DNA from: an uncultured Methylomonas sp. | GTDB taxonomy: Bacteria; Pseudomonadota; Gammaproteobacteria; Methylococcales; Methylomonadaceae | NCBI GenBank assembly: GCA_936941155.1 | Contig: CAKZJE010000046.1 | Location: 1-64,000 of the forward strand | Direction: 5' to 3' | Length of the DNA: 64,000 nucleotides | Shown: positions 33,444 through 41,899 of the stretch, one piece after another | Layout of the letters: the number at the start of each line of letters is the position of its first letter | How positions within the stretch are numbered: the stretch's first letter is position 1 | Position numbers and translations under genes: made by a program | The notes under the pieces: model-generated | Databases searched by the model: none | What the model was told of the DNA's origin: nothing | What the model saw: the letters and a program-made list of their open reading frames with translations, nothing else

Positions 33444-33736
33444 GTGCCATTATAAAACCAGTCGCCATTCGGGTCTTAGGAAAAGAATATAACGTTCCAT
33501 GCCCTATGGATGAAGAAGATGTTCTAGTTTCATCAGCGCGGAAACTCGATAAACTCATGTGTGAAATTCGTGATGCCGGCAAAATTAACGGCGGAGAGCG
33601 GATTGCGGTCATGGTCGCACTCAATATAATGACCGAATTACATACCTTGCAAAAAAAGCACGAAACCCCTGAACAAGAATTTGCAGCAAAATTAGTGCAT
33701 TTAAAACAAAAAATAGAAAAGGTTTTAGAATCTTAA
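33440..33736 (+). CDS. zapA: Cell division protein ZapA
   Basis: 98 residues, GTG start with GGAGGAAAG just upstream inside the previous gene. The N-terminal beta-alpha head (VAIRVLGKEYNVPCPMDEEDVLVSSARKLDKLM) and a C-terminal coiled coil (ALNIMTELHTLQKKHETPEQEFAAKL) match ZapA, which cross-links FtsZ filaments at mid-cell. The 6S RNA gene follows 20 bp later, the classical zapA-ssrS arrangement. Confidence 0.95.
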   Translation: MSAIIKPVAIRVLGKEYNVPCPMDEEDVLVSSARKLDKLMCEIRDAGKINGGERIAVMVALNIMTELHTLQKKHETPEQEFAAKLVHLKQKIEKVLES

Positions 33737-33756
33737 AAAACAGGTTAGAATGCTGC

Positions 33757-33942
33757 CCGTATCTCCTGCGGCGATCGAGGTGTTGTGCTGGGTGTTTCCT
33801 GAACCTATATTGCCCCCGGGAACTGAACTCGATACAGGTGTGCAAACCCACTTTAAGTGGGGAGCCTAAATTATCAATGATGTTCCCACTTGAATCTTTG
33901 GTTCAAGGACGAAAGTGCATACGGCGCAGGTGGGAGGTACTC
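33757..33942 (+). ncRNA. ssrS: 6S RNA
   Basis: The closing stem pairs GTATCTCCTGCG near 33759 with CGCAGGTGGGAGGTAC ending at 33940. Conserved internal pieces include the region leading to AACTGAACTCGATAC, the GTGGGGAGCCT stretch, and the CTTGAATCTTTGGTTCAAG hairpin, which matches the E. coli CTTGAACCAAGGGTTCAAG arm. The length is about 184 nt and it lies right after zapA. 6S RNA mimics an open promoter and sequesters sigma-70 RNA polymerase in stationary phase. The usual downstream gene (5-formyl-THF cyclo-ligase) is missing; a minus-strand operon ends there instead. Confidence 0.93.
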
Positions 33943-34035
33943 TTTCAATCATTCAGCAAGCTTCTTGCTGATTTTGCCTCAAACCTCCCCTTTTTCCACA
34001 GCCATAACATGATTGTAAATGGCAACCCCTTCGCA

Positions 34036-34953
34036 CTATCCCTGCTCAAAACTACCACGTTGTGCTGCTGTCACCAAGTGTTTGCTGCCATAAATCTGAT
34101 GGCGCTTTAACACATTACTCGCCCAAATTCTGTGCGTGGCAATTTCACACATTGAATCATTCATTTTAAAAACCGCAGTCGCTTCTTTATGCAAAATTGC
34201 CTCGGCAATTGCCACATCCTCTCTATCCACTCGATAACACGCTTCAATAATATTTAACTGACTCGGATGAATTGCCGTTTTCCCAATTAAACCACAACTA
34301 ATATCTTGCTGTGTTTCTTTAATGAGCAATTCAAGTTTATTCAAATGTTCAAATACTGGCGCAGTTAATTCAAATCCATACGGTTTAAAAACATTAATTA
34401 ATTGATAAATCACAAAACCTAATGGCGTTTCATAAACCGTTCTATCTTGTGGACGACGTAACCCTAAATGCTGTAATAAATCATTGCCACCAATGCGCAA
34501 TGCCAAAATATCATTTTGATAATCTAATTCTAATAATTTATCGCGCAATAAACACATTTTGCTTTGTTCAAAGACATCTTTAGATTCCAAAGTCAGCATA
34601 TTTTTAAAGCCGCGATTAGCGACTAATGAAAAATAATCCTTAAAATTGTTTAAATCGACTTTAGGAAAAACAAAGCCATTAATTTTCTCAATATTCGGTA
34701 ATGCTAATAATCTTTCTAAAACCTTGGGATTTCTCGCGCGAATAAAACGCAATTTATCACTCGGTTGTATATGCGCTAATAAATCTGTAATTCGCTCTAA
34801 TGCTAATTCTATTTCTTTATCGTGAATTGAATCCTCCGTACAAAACACCATTGAACGTAATTGGGGATATTTTAAACCATTGGCAATTGTCACCATATTC
34901 TCTCGCACCGCAGGAATATAAAGGGTTGCACCAAGTTTTAACGCATCAGTCAT
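34036..34953 (-). CDS. HpcH/HpaI-like TIM-barrel C-C bond lyase of the Ter-associated module
   Basis: About 305 residues from the ATG at 34953 (MTDALKLGATLYIPA); the frame extends upstream but only as overlap with the previous gene. It has the citrate-lyase-beta/aldolase fold: VFCTEDSIHDKE (metal/phosphate region), RFIRARNPKVLERLL, GFVFPKVDLNN, LTLESKDVFEQ (Glu ligand), ALRIGGNDLLQ, and GLIGKTAIHPSQLNIIEACY. This corresponds to the 'C-C_Bond_Lyase' family described with tellurium-resistance gene clusters. It is the last gene of a four-gene operon and overlaps the previous gene by eight bases. It should split or join a carbon-carbon bond in a nucleoside-like metabolite pathway; the substrate is unknown. 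Confidence 0.82.
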   Translation of the reverse strand: MTDALKLGATLYIPAVRENMVTIANGLKYPQLRSMVFCTEDSIHDKEIELALERITDLLAHIQPSDKLRFIRARNPKVLERLLALPNIEKINGFVFPKVDLNNFKDYFSLVANRGFKNMLTLESKDVFEQSKMCLLRDKLLELDYQNDILALRIGGNDLLQHLGLRRPQDRTVYETPLGFVIYQLINVFKPYGFELTAPVFEHLNKLELLIKETQQDISCGLIGKTAIHPSQLNIIEACYRVDREDVAIAEAILHKEATAVFKMNDSMCEIATHRIWASNVLKRHQIYGSKHLVTAAQRGSFEQG

Positions 34954-36046
34954 GTTTATGCTCCGCAATAATAGCAGCCGCTTGATAAGGCATGGTTGGA
35001 TTTTCGACAATTGAAACCTGTTTTTCTATCGCTAACATAGCTAGATGCAGGGTTTCTTTTGCCTGTTTATTTTTTAAGATAATTAAATCGGGCAGTCGCC
35101 GCAACAAAACGCGCGTTGCTTCACCAATCCCCGGTTTAATCAAGTTTACATTGCTAATTTGATAAGTTTCTTTTAAACCAGAGATAAAATCTGTGGATTT
35201 TTGTTGTATTTGCTCCTTACTTTCGCTATTGATAATATCAGATAATCTTAAATCATCCATGCTTACAAGTTTTGCCACTGCATCCATCGTAGCATCAATA
35301 AACCATTGACTTAAATCCTGTTTTTCAAATTCTTCATAATAATGACAAGCATGAAAATCATCTTTTCCCACATAATTGCTGTTTAAAATGGAGCGACTAA
35401 TCAACCCTGAAATCGTGGCATTTAATAAACTGGAGGGAATTAAATAATCTTCAAAACTCACTGTGACCGCCGCCACGCCAGCTATATCATTCAGCACATA
35501 TAAATCAGAACAAATACAGGTGTGATGCAATTGATTAAATTCAGCAATGCTTTTGTTTAACTCATGCGTAATCACGCCTTTACCTGTCCAACCATCCACA
35601 AAAGTTAAACTTTCTTGCGCATGTTTTGACAAAATATAGCGCAACGCATTGGCATCAATACCGCGATCCCGAATAATAGAAACAGAATAATGATGACAAT
35701 CCCGCTGGAAATATTGTTGCAAAATTCGTTTTAATAACACGCCAATCGGTGTGCCAGCTCGCGCCAGTGAACACAAAACAATTTCATTTTTTTGTATTTG
35801 ATTAATTTTTGCAGCTAATTTAAAAACATCGGCTGCTAAGCGCAGATGATTTTGAGCAAATATTTGTTCAAATAAAGTTAAGTATTCCGCAGAAGGCAGC
35901 GATTCTTTGGTAATCATTTCGCTGTAATGCTTTTTTCCTGTTTGAATTAAGCGTTCTTTTTCTTTAATGGGGGTATTTTCAATTTCAATCGGTTTTAACA
36001 AAAAATGCACATCCGTTGCTAAATAGCTGCCCGAAAATATAGTCAT
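34946..36046 (-). CDS. StiP-family protein (former PRTase_1) with C-terminal Pelota-like domain
   Basis: 366 residues. The N-terminal ~250 residues contain FSGSYLATDVHFLLKPI, the phosphoribosyltransferase-like strand VLCSLARAGTPIGVLLKR, SIIRDRGIDANAL and the PRPP-loop-like LTFVDGWTGKGVITHEL. This family was first called a phosphoribosyltransferase and is now listed as 'cysteine protease StiP', so its chemistry is unsettled. The C-terminal ~100 residues (NLIKPGIGEATRVLLRRLPDLIILK) fit the Pelota-like RNA-binding domain that accompanies it. It starts immediately after the HAD gene (no gap) and overlaps the lyase gene, so it is clearly co-transcribed. Confidence 0.82.
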   Translation of the reverse strand: MTIFSGSYLATDVHFLLKPIEIENTPIKEKERLIQTGKKHYSEMITKESLPSAEYLTLFEQIFAQNHLRLAADVFKLAAKINQIQKNEIVLCSLARAGTPIGVLLKRILQQYFQRDCHHYSVSIIRDRGIDANALRYILSKHAQESLTFVDGWTGKGVITHELNKSIAEFNQLHHTCICSDLYVLNDIAGVAAVTVSFEDYLIPSSLLNATISGLISRSILNSNYVGKDDFHACHYYEEFEKQDLSQWFIDATMDAVAKLVSMDDLRLSDIINSESKEQIQQKSTDFISGLKETYQISNVNLIKPGIGEATRVLLRRLPDLIILKNKQAKETLHLAMLAIEKQVSIVENPTMPYQAAAIIAEHKHD

Positions 36047-36823
36047 TTAATCCTCAATATTTAATGGATGATGGTGAATGCCAATACATTCTCTAACGAT
36101 TTGACTGTTTTTAGGAGTCATAAAATAATCGCATAACTGCATATAAGCAATATCCGTCACACTGTCTCCCATTCCCACACTAATATATTCGTCATATTGT
36201 TTATCGAGTTCTTTTTGTAAAAAGCTCACTGCGGGAGCTTTATTTAAAAATCGTGGTAAAACCGCTAAATTGTTATCATTTAAATGACAATAAAAATCAA
36301 GCTGATGCCGGGTTAAATACGGTTCAATCACTTCGCTTAATAAAGTTTTTAATGCCGCATGATTTTTATCTTCATGTTTGACTAATAAATAAAAGGTTAA
36401 ATCTAAATCGCTAATTAAGCGAATTTTAAAACCAATTTTGCGTTTAATCGCCTCCTGCTCTACAAGCTGTTGCAGCTCTTGCAATTGCGGCACAACCGGT
36501 TCTAAAGCATTTTTAATATAATCAAACCACACCTGATGCACACTGCCGTCCGCATTCAAAATAATGCCGCCGTGATTGATGATCGCGTAATCATAACCTT
36601 TAATATGCGCTAACAAAAACGCGCTGTGGCTTCTGGCGGTGGTAGGAATTAATCGAGTTTTATGATTCAGGATGTTAAAAAAACTGGCTTGTTTCGCGGT
36701 AAAAAATGACATCACCGAACCATCTTGGGCAAACGCTGCCGGAAAAATCGGTTTATTTTCAGGGCATTTGCGCTTAGTTTGAAAAATGGTGTCATCAAGG
36801 TCGAGAAATACAAAAAGTTCCAT
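36047..36823 (-). CDS. HAD-superfamily phosphatase of the Ter-associated module
   Basis: 258 residues. Motif I is VFLDLDDTIFQ (nucleophile Asp8, acid Asp10), motif II is the Thr in LIPTTARS, and the late Lys and Asp are in VGMGDSVTDIAYM (motif IV; Cof-type cap layout). It should remove phosphate from a sugar- or nucleoside-phosphate in the cytoplasm. Its start overlaps the preceding phosphoribosyltransferase gene by 29 bp, and its stop abuts the next start, which means tight translational coupling. Confidence 0.85.
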   Translation of the reverse strand: MELFVFLDLDDTIFQTKRKCPENKPIFPAAFAQDGSVMSFFTAKQASFFNILNHKTRLIPTTARSHSAFLLAHIKGYDYAIINHGGIILNADGSVHQVWFDYIKNALEPVVPQLQELQQLVEQEAIKRKIGFKIRLISDLDLTFYLLVKHEDKNHAALKTLLSEVIEPYLTRHQLDFYCHLNDNNLAVLPRFLNKAPAVSFLQKELDKQYDEYISVGMGDSVTDIAYMQLCDYFMTPKNSQIVRECIGIHHHPLNIED

Positions 36824-37958
36824 GATTTACCTGAATTGAAATGGCGTTTAAAAGTGACAAAATAAAATTAATTTCGGCGTTTTTGGGTGTTTCATGGCAG
36901 ACTAAAATGTGCTGATAATCGTGCATCTTGCTGTTATATAAGTAGTTATTAATGCCATCACCATAGTTATCCGTAAAACTTACACAATCGCCAATCGCCG
37001 CAGCGGTTAAAATCGGTGAGCGTGTGGTTGATTGCACATACACGTTAAATCCTTGTTTTTCCAGCTCTAATCCCAACAAAAACGCATGATAAATAAATTC
37101 ACCCGTGCCTAAAACCAGCACTTTATCGTCTAGCTGCCAGTGTTGGGTTAATTCATCCCACGCGCCGGTTAGTTTTGGCAACAAGCCTTGAATCCCTAAG
37201 CGTCCGTAATTGCTCGGCAAGAGATTTTTTTTGCAAACCTGCGGGCTGTCTAAATTCACACTGCTAAATTCAAATTCAGTATTTGGCGTAAAACTATACG
37301 ATCCGGTTAAAACAGATAGCCACTCAACCTGCATTCCAGTCAACGCATTCACGCGCTGCCGCGCCGCTGCATCACTTAAATTCAACAAACTTAAGACAAA
37401 CACGCGCTTTAACGCAGGATTGATTTTTTTATACGCATTAATCAAATTCGCAAACGTATTTCCTGTGCTGATTTCATCATCAATTAAGACTAACGTATCA
37501 GCTGTGTTAAAAATAGTTTGAATCTCTGCTTGTTCTGGCAGATATAAATAAAAACTCCGTGCGTGCGTGTGTGCTTCTTCAAACCCTAAAAAAGTCTGAT
37601 TTTCCAAAAAATAGCGCGTAGTTTGCGAATAAATTCCGTGCTTATCGGTTTTTTTCAACCAGCTCTCATACACGCCTAAACCCAGTGCAGTTGCGGTCTC
37701 CGCCATGCCAATAAACGCAAACTGCTCACAGCGTTGCTCGGCGGCTAATAACAAATCAGCAAGCGCATTGTAGCTTTGTAATATTGCAAAAGGCTTACAA
37801 GGATAATGTTTTGCTAACACTTTGCTGACAAATAAAAAGCCGCGTTTGGGGTTATTTCGGGCGGCAAAAGCAATGTATTGGTTAAATAACCCCTCGGTTT
37901 CGTTGATAGTAACGTTTAAAGTGCCAGTCGGTAGCGATACAGTTTTTGAAAAAGACAT
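36795..37958 (-). CDS. Phosphoribosyltransferase (PRTase_2) with C-terminal TRSP domain
   Basis: About 387 residues from the ATG at 37958 (MSFSKTVSLPTGTLNV); the longer frame to 38045 adds an unlikely segment. The PRTase signature is the PRPP loop LVLIDDEISTGNTFANLINAY (about residue 165). The TRSP domain follows C-terminally, with TRSPILTAAAIGD and YLYNSKMHDYQHILVCHETP (about 305-360). These two domains together are known from operons that accompany TerC/TerD-type stress proteins. It is the promoter-proximal gene of the operon, divergent from argJ across a 265-bp gap. Confidence 0.85.
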   Translation of the reverse strand: MSFSKTVSLPTGTLNVTINETEGLFNQYIAFAARNNPKRGFLFVSKVLAKHYPCKPFAILQSYNALADLLLAAEQRCEQFAFIGMAETATALGLGVYESWLKKTDKHGIYSQTTRYFLENQTFLGFEEAHTHARSFYLYLPEQAEIQTIFNTADTLVLIDDEISTGNTFANLINAYKKINPALKRVFVLSLLNLSDAAARQRVNALTGMQVEWLSVLTGSYSFTPNTEFEFSSVNLDSPQVCKKNLLPSNYGRLGIQGLLPKLTGAWDELTQHWQLDDKVLVLGTGEFIYHAFLLGLELEKQGFNVYVQSTTRSPILTAAAIGDCVSFTDNYGDGINNYLYNSKMHDYQHILVCHETPKNAEINFILSLLNAISIQVNHGTFCISRP

Positions 37959-38223
37959 GCGATGCTCGGAGATAAAAAAGAGGAGGTAATGCCGAAATGA
38001 TTTAGTACATCTTATCTTATAATCCGTGAAAGATGAAAATTGCACCGATGTAGGTCAATTTGTTTACGAATACGCCACATAAAAAAAGCTATTTTCAGGT
38101 GTAAATCCATTACAATCTGTTGCAATAGTAGAAACAAATGCAACCTTTGGCTCTGCAAAAATAATTTTTTATACAAACCAATCAATTACTTATAATTTAA
38201 CTTTCTAAAACAGAGGTGACGTA

Positions 38224-39438
38224 ATGGCAGTAGGACAGGTTAGTTTTCCACAAATGAACCCAATTGCAGGGATTAGCTTAGGCACAACCAATGCAGGAAT
38301 TAAACAAACGGTACGCGCGGATATTTTAGTGGTGCAAATGGCAGAAGGCTCTAGTTGCGCTGCGGTGTTTACCCAAAATGCGTTTTGCGCCGCGCCCGTG
38401 CATGTTGCCAAAGCTCATTTAAGCCAATCGCCACGCTGGTTATTAATTAACTCCGGCAATGCCAATGCCGGCACAGGCGCATCTGGAATGAGCAACGCTT
38501 TGTTTACTTGCGAAGCGGTAGCAAAATTAGTCAGTGGCGCAGCAACACAAGTGCTGCCTTTTTCAACTGGCGTGATTGGCGAGCCTTTGGCAGTCGATAA
38601 AATTGAACACGCTTTGCCAAATGCAATTGCACAATTAGCAGAGGAAAATTGGACTGCCGCCGCGCAAGCAATTATGACCACCGACACTTTTGCAAAAGGT
38701 GCGACACGCTGCATTGAAGTTGCTGGAGAAAAAATCACGATTAACGGCATTTCCAAAGGCGCGGGCATGATTCAGCCAAATATGGCGACCATGCTGGGCT
38801 TTATGGCGACGGATGCCAAAATATCCAGCGCGTTATTGCAAGAAATTTTAAGCTTTTCTGCCGAACAATCGTTTAATCGCATCACGGTGGATGGCGATAC
38901 CTCAACAAATGATGCTTGCGTGTTAATGGCGAGCGGTTGTTCTGCTGCTCCAGAAATCACGGCGGAAAGTCCTTATTATCAAGTGTTTGCAGATGCCGTT
39001 TTAGCCGTATGCAAAGAATTGGCGGAATTGATTATTCGTGATGGCGAAGGCGCAACTAAACTGATGCGGATTGTGGTGGAAGAGGCATTGCATGATGCTG
39101 AAGCCGTGCAAGTGGCAAAAACGATTGCGCATTCACCGTTAGTGAAAACTGCATTTTTCGCCAGCGATCCAAATTGGGGACGGATTTTGGCGGCGGTGGG
39201 TCGTGCGGGTGTGGAAAATATGGATTTGGACAAAGTGCAGTTGTATTTAGGCGATGTTTGCATTGTTGAAAATGGCGGCAGAGCTGCAAGTTATACGGAA
39301 CAAGCAGGACAAGCGGTGATGAATAAGGAAGAAATTACGGTCACTGTGCGTTTAGGGCGCGGCGTGGCAACACAAGAGGTTTTAACCTGCGATTTTTCTT
39401 ATGATTATGTCAAAATCAACGCGGAATATCGCTCGTAA
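38224..39438 (+). CDS. argJ: Bifunctional ornithine acetyltransferase / N-acetylglutamate synthase
   Basis: 404 residues. The self-cleavage site is seen in GAGMIQPNMATMLGFMATDA (about 180-199), where the Thr of ATML becomes the nucleophile of the beta chain. Other family motifs are LINSGNANAGTG, FSTGVIGEPL, and NRITVDGDTSTNDACVLMASG. It transfers acetyl groups from acetyl-ornithine to glutamate in the cytoplasm, recycling the acetyl group of arginine synthesis. An SD-like AGAGGTGACG precedes the ATG. The gene is complete and stands alone, followed by a large composite repeat. Confidence 0.97.
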   Translation: MAVGQVSFPQMNPIAGISLGTTNAGIKQTVRADILVVQMAEGSSCAAVFTQNAFCAAPVHVAKAHLSQSPRWLLINSGNANAGTGASGMSNALFTCEAVAKLVSGAATQVLPFSTGVIGEPLAVDKIEHALPNAIAQLAEENWTAAAQAIMTTDTFAKGATRCIEVAGEKITINGISKGAGMIQPNMATMLGFMATDAKISSALLQEILSFSAEQSFNRITVDGDTSTNDACVLMASGCSAAPEITAESPYYQVFADAVLAVCKELAELIIRDGEGATKLMRIVVEEALHDAEAVQVAKTIAHSPLVKTAFFASDPNWGRILAAVGRAGVENMDLDKVQLYLGDVCIVENGGRAASYTEQAGQAVMNKEEITVTVRLGRGVATQEVLTCDFSYDYVKINAEYRS

Positions 39439-40006: not shown

Positions 40007-41899
40007 ATGAAAAATTTCCTTGTTTTACAACTCCGCCTAGTTTTCGCCTGCGTTTGCCTGTTTTCACAAACAACATTTGCCGACAATCCCCCTTTAGCCG
40101 TCGGTTACAGCGCGTTACCTTATCTAACTCCGCCAGTCGGCAGCTATCAACTTCCACCTTTAGGACTTGCAGGCGATGGTTTGGTTTTAAATACTGCAAA
40201 TAAAACGACAAAACTACACGATTTGATGGGCAACAAAATTGTGTTGCTCAGTTTTATTTACGCCACTTGCAGCGACGTGAACGGCTGCCCGTTAGCGACT
40301 TCGGTTTTGTACAAAATCAAAAATCGTTTGGCAAAAGAACCGGAACTTGCCAAACAATTGCGTTTATTAACTTTGAGTTTTAACCCAGAACACGATACGC
40401 CCGAAAAAATGGCGCATTACGGCAAAGGTTTGCAAAATTCGGGTTTGGAATGGCAATTTTTAACCACGCGCTCCGAGCAAGATTTGCAACCAATTCTGCA
40501 AAATTATCAGCAAAATGTGCAGAAAATCTTTGATAAACAAGGTAAGTTTACAGGTACGTTTTCGCATAATCTGCGCGTGTATCTGATTGATAAGAATAAA
40601 CAATTGCGCAATATTTACAGCGTGGATTTTTTGCATCCTGATACCTTAATCAACGACATAAAAACCGTGTTGGCGGCTAAATCTCAGACAGAAAACACTG
40701 CGAAAAATCTGCACGACAACGCGTTATCTCAAGCCGGTGATAATAAATCAGCTTATGAAACAACAAATTATAAAACCCATTCTGTCGCGGTCACACAACG
40801 CTTAGGACGCAGTAGCAATTTACTTAAAACGATTAAACAGCCGCCGTTAGGTTTGCCCGCTGTGCCGCAACCTCCCGATAATCGCATCACGCAGGCAAAA
40901 ATTGCCTTAGGAAAAAAACTGTTTTACGACCGCCGTTTGTCGCTGAATAACACCTTTTCCTGTGCAATATGTCATATTCCAGAACAGGGTTTTGCGAATA
41001 ATGAAATGGCGACCGCTGTGGGTGTGGAAGGGCGCACGGTGAGACGCAACGCGCCGACTTTGTACAACGTGGCGTATATGCAAAAGCTGTTTCACGATGG
41101 GCGCGAGAATACGCTGGAGCAACAAGCGTGGTCGCCGCTGTTGGCGCATAATGAAATGGCGAATCCTTCGGTGGGTTATGTGATTGATAAAATTAAAAAA
41201 AGTTCCGATTACAACGGTTTGTTTGAAAAAACGTTTAAACGCGGCGCGAGTATGGAAACGGTGGGCATGGCGTTGGCGAGTTATCAACGCACGTTGAATT
41301 CTGCGGATTCGGCGTTTGATCGTTGGTTTTATGATAAACAAAACAAAGCGTTATCGTCAGAAGCACAGCGCGGTTTTAAATTGTTTGTCGGTAAAGCAGG
41401 ATGTGCTGCTTGTCATCAAATTGGGGAAAAATCGGCGTTATTCACCGACCAAAAACTGCATAACACTGGCATTGGTTTTGATGATGCCATGAATAAATCG
41501 CCTGCCAAATTGAAAGTGCAAGTTGCGCCGGGGGTATTTGTTGATGTGGATAGCTCCACGATAAACAGTGTGACTGAGCCGAAAGCGGCGGATTTGGGGT
41601 TGTATGAAATCACGCAAAATCCTGCTGACCGTTGGCAGTATAAAACGCCAAGTTTGCGCAATATTAGTTTGACCGCGCCGTATATGCACAATGGTAGGTT
41701 TGCCACGTTGCAGCAGGTGGTGGAGTTTTATAATCAAGGCGGCGTGAAAAATGAAAATCTTGATCCGTTGCTAAAACCGTTAAATCTTTCAACCAAGGAA
41801 ATCAATGAGTTAATTGCATTTTTACAGAGTTTAACAGGTAACAATGTTGCGGAATTAGTCGCGGATGGTTTTGCGGCAACAGTTGGCGAGGCAAAGTGA
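40007..41899 (+). CDS. Fusion of a SCO1/SenC domain with a di-haem cytochrome c peroxidase (MauG-like)
   Basis: 630 residues. The signal peptide (FACVCLFSQTTFA) is followed by a thioredoxin-like SCO domain (about 60-215) with the Cys pair in YATCSDVNGCPLA, five residues apart rather than the usual three, and the copper-ligand-type His in FSHNLRVYLID. Residues about 290-630 form a di-haem peroxidase with two CxxCH sites, CAICHIPEQGF and CAACHQIGE, plus PSLRNISLTAPYMHNGRF. It acts in the periplasm, reducing peroxide or modifying a partner. The two modules are normally separate proteins. SCO domains handle copper and thiols for oxidase assembly, so the fusion suggests coupling of copper/redox handling with the peroxidase. 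Confidence 0.88.
   Translation: MKNFLVLQLRLVFACVCLFSQTTFADNPPLAVGYSALPYLTPPVGSYQLPPLGLAGDGLVLNTANKTTKLHDLMGNKIVLLSFIYATCSDVNGCPLATSVLYKIKNRLAKEPELAKQLRLLTLSFNPEHDTPEKMAHYGKGLQNSGLEWQFLTTRSEQDLQPILQNYQQNVQKIFDKQGKFTGTFSHNLRVYLIDKNKQLRNIYSVDFLHPDTLINDIKTVLAAKSQTENTAKNLHDNALSQAGDNKSAYETTNYKTHSVAVTQRLGRSSNLLKTIKQPPLGLPAVPQPPDNRITQAKIALGKKLFYDRRLSLNNTFSCAICHIPEQGFANNEMATAVGVEGRTVRRNAPTLYNVAYMQKLFHDGRENTLEQQAWSPLLAHNEMANPSVGYVIDKIKKSSDYNGLFEKTFKRGASMETVGMALASYQRTLNSADSAFDRWFYDKQNKALSSEAQRGFKLFVGKAGCAACHQIGEKSALFTDQKLHNTGIGFDDAMNKSPAKLKVQVAPGVFVDVDSSTINSVTEPKAADLGLYEITQNPADRWQYKTPSLRNISLTAPYMHNGRFATLQQVVEFYNQGGVKNENLDPLLKPLNLSTKEINELIAFLQSLTGNNVAELVADGFAATVGEAK

Follow-up and report, generated by a model that had tools for sequence, protein, structure and literature searches.

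A putative Ter-type biosynthetic core lying apart from the Ter genes of its own Methylomonas genome

Anantharaman et al. reportedly predicted in 2012 that Ter proteins mediate the action of a nucleoside-like metabolite. In the available passages of PMC8115787 and PMC7824862, which cite that work, the core of enzymes treated here is predicted to make a nucleoside-like metabolite, and the available passages of the citing literature reported no identification of the product. The composite gene order around this core in relatives was (TerC), TerD, TerD, (TerF), TerD, ATP-grasp, PRTase_2, HAD, StiP, lyase, (TerF), TerB; it was pooled from several relatives, no single one of which need hold all of it, and some runs were split or carried inserted genes.

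The stretch analysed (64,000 nucleotides of contig CAKZJE010000046.1 of an uncultured Methylomonas sp., hereafter the window) carried four core genes on the minus strand at 34036-37958, in the order PRTase_2+TRSP, HAD, StiP+Pelota and C-C bond lyase. The window lies on contig C46 of a genome (G000) of 4.26 Mb in 124 contigs, given as 99.98% complete. The core is probably the metabolite-making arm of the Ter (tellurium and stress response) system, the operon of which would have been broken up in this lineage; it is read as a known system with scattered genes because the remaining Ter genes lie elsewhere in the same genome.

Ter genes of the window genome

In profile searches of the whole genome, C46 had no match to TerD at E up to 1e-3, none to TerC, TerB and TelA at E up to 1e-6, and none at E up to 1 to ATPgrasp_Ter, the one ATP-grasp family covered. 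Five TerD proteins were found on other contigs, two on C19 and one each on C31, C37 and C107, the C107 protein combining TerD with vWA, i.e., TerF-like. The two TerD genes of C19 were adjacent and ordered as in the operon of G452, a relative. A DUF475-type TerC was found on C120, two TerB on C111 and C20, and TelA on C111. ATPgrasp_Ter gave one strong match, on C47 (102 bits), and a further one, on C13, that was barely above cut-off (29.4 bits with neighbours). Ter partner genes were spread over eight contigs other than C46. TerD, TerC, TerB and TelA occurred together with the core in one genome, and physical linkage of the core to Ter genes was not seen on C46; the core is described as a dispersed module and not as a ter operon.

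An earlier note on this stretch had described four genes that overlap or abut on the minus strand and no Ter, TelA or ATP-grasp gene within 64 kb. Both descriptions held, the former by Pfam domains and coding spans and the latter for TerD, TerC, TerB, TelA and ATPgrasp_Ter in the profile searches of C46. The title of the note, "without any Ter protein", was untrue of the genome, and its suggestion that partners are encoded elsewhere was supported when the full-genome search that it had proposed located TerD, TerC, TelA and ATPgrasp_Ter, as well as TerB, outside C46. The note had also held that Ter and ATP-grasp genes elsewhere under shared regulation would make this simply a dispersed known system: Ter and ATPgrasp_Ter genes were found elsewhere, but a crude motif test gave no convincing sign of shared regulation, and the ATP-grasp may not be the pathway's own.

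Linkage and break-up of the operon in relatives

In the sample of the window's family, StiP was found in 66 of 151 genomes (17 of 29 genera), TerD in 85 (20 of 29 genera) and ATPgrasp_Ter at 1e-12 in 59, of which 55 were counted after removal of four weak matches (G370, G378, G445 and G460; 50-74 bits). TerD was present in all 66 StiP genomes. A strong ATPgrasp_Ter match was found in 54 of the 66 and in none of the other 12, some of which are incomplete. In the class sample StiP was found in 9 of 369 genomes, including the window's own, and outside the family seven of eight StiP genomes carried TerD.

In at least 36 of the 66 family genomes no more than 15 kb separated StiP from TerD or ATP-grasp, a lower bound drawn from TerD places among the matches listed and from draft contigs; where the loci were inspected in detail, the genes mostly formed a single operon with this gene order. 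Nine genomes appeared unlinked initially; on a close look a Ter gene was nearby in G393 (TerF) and in G418 and G484 (TerB), StiP was near a contig end in G438, and StiP was unlinked in the window genome, G376, G402, G425 and G443. Some Ter gene was found in 17 of 20 chosen StiP stretches of the family, and a TerD run with PRTase_2, HAD and StiP in 10. A scan of a genome collection kept the best 80 of at least 593 relatives' loci, 42 of which had over 20.9 kb of sequence; near StiP in these 42 were TerD (35), PRTase_2 (39), HAD (39), lyase (38) and ATP-grasp (29). StiP was also found on 2567 of 72,556 plasmid records, mostly enterobacterial.

The four-gene order was kept, with intact frames and differing neighbours, in all three sampled genomes of the window's genus (g1: G000, G393 and G418). 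Besides the core, no gene in the G393 and G418 stretches had its best match in the window, the G393 stretch ending about 0.3 kb past the lyase. Both congeners kept a Ter gene within 5 kb of the core: TerF about 2.5 kb upstream in G393, and in G418, at a distance of about 4 kb, a TerB that lies on the opposite strand and is truncated at a contig end. In a second genus (g280), where the operon is dispersed as in g1, G402 had all four core genes, G443 and G425 had StiP and lyase only (at the locus; the rest of the genome was not searched), and G376 had a lone StiP beside ubiB (at the locus). Chance co-location of the four families was rejected, as their frames overlap or abut and their order is identical in the three genomes of the genus. 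Between the window and G393, pN/pS (nonsynonymous and synonymous differences per site, with synonymous sites near saturation) was 0.16/0.72 for PRTase_2, 0.15/0.69 for HAD, 0.15/0.62 for StiP and 0.10/0.68 for the lyase; because pN was far below pS, all four genes look to be under purifying selection.

With that of G376 set aside, the StiP proteins of g1 and g280, six in number, formed one clade (support 100/99) in a StiP tree that was flagged for long branches and odd compositions, and the deep forks of which were not used. The G376 protein grouped with the lone StiP genes of loci L112 and L113. Lone StiP+Pelota genes, with no PRTase_2, HAD or lyase nearby, were seen in L068 (9532-10638, plus strand), L112 (7869-8972, plus) and L113 (9983-11089, plus) and formed a clade (99/92); in L113, a methylase gene and a gene for a BsuBI/PstI restriction enzyme came after StiP.

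Predicted chemistry and rival readings

The first core protein matched Pfam PRTase_2 (phosphoribosyltransferase, PRTase; 189 bits) and TRSP (69 bits). Residues D160, D161, E162 and G166 of its phosphoribosyl pyrophosphate (PRPP) loop were invariant in 37 aligned sequences, and the loop region weakly matched UMP synthase, HGPRT and APRT chains (E 0.017-0.078). The HAD protein was matched less strongly (HAD-IIB 28.5 bits vs. a cut-off of 41.8; S6PP slightly under the Pfam cut-off); its residues D8, D10, T62, K195, G219, D220 and D224 were at least 95% conserved in 68 relatives. The lyase matched Pfam PF15617 C-C_Bond_Lyase (306 bits) and, weakly, the RipC and CitE models and a citrate lyase chain (E 0.026), and its residues E123, R153, D158, K225 and H229 were at least 95% conserved in 67 relatives; both sets of relatives are those kept after a length and score filter. 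By these matches the lyase is classed as CitE-like.

StiP, which is taken here to be a putative PRTase family, matched Pfam StiP (342 bits) and PELOTA_1 (97 bits). Residues S93, R96, G98, P100, D151, W153, K156 and G157 were invariant in 42 sequences, and the C-terminal domain weakly matched L7Ae chains (best E 0.0015). Two conserved stretches of StiP, SLARAGTP and VDGWTGKG, were in register with the PRTase_2 loops, the profile comparison being non-significant (E 0.084, probability 0.7%), and a comparison with PDB sequences gave no PRTase match. Pfam and plasmid annotation name StiP a cysteine protease; a phage record has it as a phosphoribosyl transferase, and the available part of PMC5571608 reads it as a PRTase. 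Because the profile comparison was non-significant, the PRTase reading rests on literature and on the form of the motifs.

In the mechanism proposed, PRTase_2 would join a base-like substrate to PRPP, and the HAD phosphatase would remove the phosphate. Further groups would be trimmed or joined by the CitE-like lyase and by StiP, which would be another PRTase-like enzyme and carry an RNA-binding domain of the L7Ae-like type. The nucleoside-like product would be bound by TerD proteins acting with TerC, TerB, TelA and TerF (TerD-vWA) at the membrane. The product would diffuse, so that the biosynthetic enzymes need not adjoin the receptors and the operon could break without loss of function.

A more specific reading, held to be unlikely, makes the product a second messenger that diffuses and is bound by TerD domains, so that enzymes are separable from receptors, and makes a TerD-nuclease fusion a signal-activated nuclease paralleling the CARF nucleases of type III CRISPR systems. 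A diffusible signal sensed by TerD is near what PMC7824862, in its available part, states as evident; the step to it from the core enzymes is an inference. The fusion is encoded on C37 of the window genome (L014, 8738-10219, minus strand; 493 amino acids), with TerD at residues 3-174. Its C-terminal part, read as a PD-(D/E)XK nuclease-like domain, matched the Card1-like endonuclease below the Pfam cut-off (20.7 vs. 26.4 bits) and matched CARF-PDDEXK and Csx1 models, to 3.5e-10. This part had no other match in the sets of open reading frames searched, before L201 was among them. A relative of the fusion was found in L201 (1760-3283, minus strand; 507 amino acids), from Methylococcaceae UBA4132, i.e., from another genus (g293), in which Card1-like was just above the Pfam cut-off (26.5 bits) and the CARF-PDDEXK and Csx1 models matched at 5e-12; a stretch E[LI]DVF...PLFIECKSGEY was conserved in both fusions. 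The available TerD passages of literature on TerD, CARF and nucleases did not describe a TerD-nuclease fusion, and no claim is made that it is unpublished. TerD was also seen fused to a Virul_Fac (PF10139) protein in L202 (1630-5028, minus strand; 1132 amino acids).

Several observations weigh against the core being the detached arm of a broken-up Ter operon, beginning with the core chemistry, which is entirely inferred. When the regions upstream of the core and of seven Ter-related genes in the same genome were compared, the best shared 8-mer and 10-mer were within the range of shuffled sequences (equalled in 30% and 22.5% of 40 shuffles, respectively). A 12-mer with two mismatches (2.5% of shuffles) was not taken as co-regulation, being an AT run and the outcome of one of three tests. 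The C47 ATP-grasp and the family's operon ATP-grasp were 33% identical, the operon members being 57-73% identical to one another's reference, and congener G418 had no ATPgrasp_Ter match at 1e-12; because of both, the partner in the pathway may not be the C47 protein, to which a G393 protein was 73% identical. The pathway here would either use a diverged ligase or run without one, as possibly in the 12 StiP genomes that lack a strong match. TerD occurred without StiP in 19 family genomes, the co-occurrence counts and Fisher p values ignore kinship, and G117 had a divergent StiP (24% identical to the window's) without TerD. In the StiP tree the g1 and g280 clade was not nested in the main operon clade of the family, and acquisition as a ready-made core is therefore possible; uniting the two clades was not rejected (p-AU 0.167). 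Finally, 23 genomes were tested, namely 19 of 20 named loci without TerD, TerC or TerB of at least 60 bits in the flank (L117 excluded) and four with TerB and no TerD: TerD was absent in seven of these 23 StiP genomes, all among the 19, and DUF475 was absent in all seven (TerD and the DUF475 type of TerC being the Ter families covered in them).

These seven genomes speak for the possibility that the four-enzyme core is self-sufficient, its product being used without Ter proteins and the Ter genes of the window genome being unrelated to it, which is considered improbable. Five of the seven had more of the core than StiP (L142, L181, L149, L128 and L169, the last with part of PRTase_2, HAD and StiP), and L112 and L113 had StiP alone. 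The full four-gene core was found in L142 (7939-12029, plus strand) and L181 (7744-12080, plus strand), in both preceded by a TMEM260-like gene and with upstream flanks that look alike, also holding CDP-alcohol transferase, nucleotidyltransferase and aldehyde dehydrogenase types (of these flank genes, the scans covered the TMEM260-like one alone in both loci). The stable order of the unit while its neighbours change is also in keeping with self-sufficiency. All seven records are, however, titled as metagenome-assembled genomes, of completeness not given, none of the 66 StiP genomes of the family lacked TerD, and both congeners kept a Ter gene close by. The suggestion of the earlier note that the core can work alone was not supported for the window genome and the family sample, and may hold elsewhere.

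Recruitment of the cluster to another job after it left the Ter operon, such as salvage of nucleosides or the modification of RNA or cofactors, was given an equally small chance. The Pelota/L7Ae-like domain of StiP, the clade of solitary StiP genes of G376, L112 and L113, and the 12 family genomes with StiP and no strong ATPgrasp_Ter match agree with it, but the window enzymes keep the gene order and the residues conserved in Ter-linked relatives, all StiP genomes of the family sample having TerD. The fragmentation in g280, down to StiP and lyase in G443 and G425 and to StiP in G376 (at the locus), would suit a decaying remnant of a Ter operon without current function; the intact frames in three genomes of the window's genus and the low pN relative to pS make this very improbable. 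The preferred reading has a dispersed Ter system in which the core is the arm that makes the metabolite. With enzymes and Ter receptors as separate loci, each arm can be deleted independently; the question of whether TerD senses the product as a signal can be approached through the TerD-nuclease fusion and the genomes that lack Ter genes.

The locus, its neighbours and known Ter systems

The features of the window locus are given in Table 1. Gene starts, the higher coordinate of each core gene, were picked by comparison with related genes. The PRTase_2 and HAD frames overlap by 29 bases, HAD and StiP abut, and StiP and lyase overlap by 8 bases, which suggests translational coupling.

Table 1. 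Core genes and neighbouring features, by position in the window
Feature	Positions	Strand	Basis
PRTase_2 + TRSP phosphoribosyltransferase, operon gene 1	36795..37958	-	Pfam PF15609 + PF12500
HAD-IIB-like phosphatase	36047..36823	-	HAD-SF-IIB profile + conserved HAD residues
StiP (PRTase_1-like) + PELOTA_1	34946..36046	-	Pfam PF11202 + PF15608
C-C bond lyase (CitE-like TIM barrel)	34036..34953	-	Pfam PF15617
Divergent intergenic region, PRTase_2/argJ, presumed promoter region	37959..38223	.	Sequence
6S RNA gene	33760..33940	+	Rfam, 62.6 bits
MbnH/MauG-like di-haem enzyme with SCO1/SenC domain	40007..41899	+	

Upstream of the operon lies argJ, on the opposite strand, and downstream a 6S RNA gene, between the lyase end of the operon and zapA. 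The 6S RNA was the sole Rfam match at gathering scores. The di-haem enzyme gene is followed by one for an Lcl_C-domain protein. Fifteen other scanned genes of the window were of ordinary chromosomal types, and a mobile-element insertion was rejected on this account, the remaining open reading frames being outside the scan. A DNA-level search of plasmids with the operon gave no match. PADLOC gave no match for three of the core proteins and weak PRTase_III-A matches for PRTase_2 (best 1.2e-5). Footprinting of the promoter region, with the window and G393 compared over 291 bases and the final 76 bases alone covered for G418 and G402, gave a mean column identity of 41%, with little conserved beyond the start, and promoter-like matches in 33700-38300 were no commoner than in shuffled sequence.

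The enterobacterial ter locus of Escherichia coli plasmid pA102-CTX-M-65 resembles the window in having, in the same order, a phosphoribosyltransferase, an unnamed open reading frame at the HAD position, StiP and a gene of the HpcH/citrate-lyase family. The frame at the HAD position is annotated as hypothetical, and the gene order is that of the plasmid annotation; the plasmid StiP was 39% identical to the window's over 98% of its length. The plasmid locus differs in having ATP-grasp before the PRTase and the terZ-to-TerF genes divergently adjacent, none of which is on the window contig. The Acinetobacter jumbo phage vB_AbaM_ME3, the Ter genes of which are described in the available part of PMC7824862 as a relatively complete Ter system, carries consecutive genes for a PRTase, a haloacid dehalogenase and a phosphoribosyl transferase, the last being the one that StiP matched, as does the window, but is phage-borne and has no lyase gene annotated adjoining StiP.

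The chromosomal Ter operon of the methanotroph family (G394, G406, G422 and, in L140, Methylobacter tundripaludum) has the same four core genes in identical order, with StiP proteins 49-51% identical to that of the window. In these operons the core is continuous with TerD genes and ATP-grasp, and in most cases with TerB or TerF as well, whereas the window core is detached. The window case is ordinary but informative: the module is known, and so are the partners from which it stands apart within one genome.

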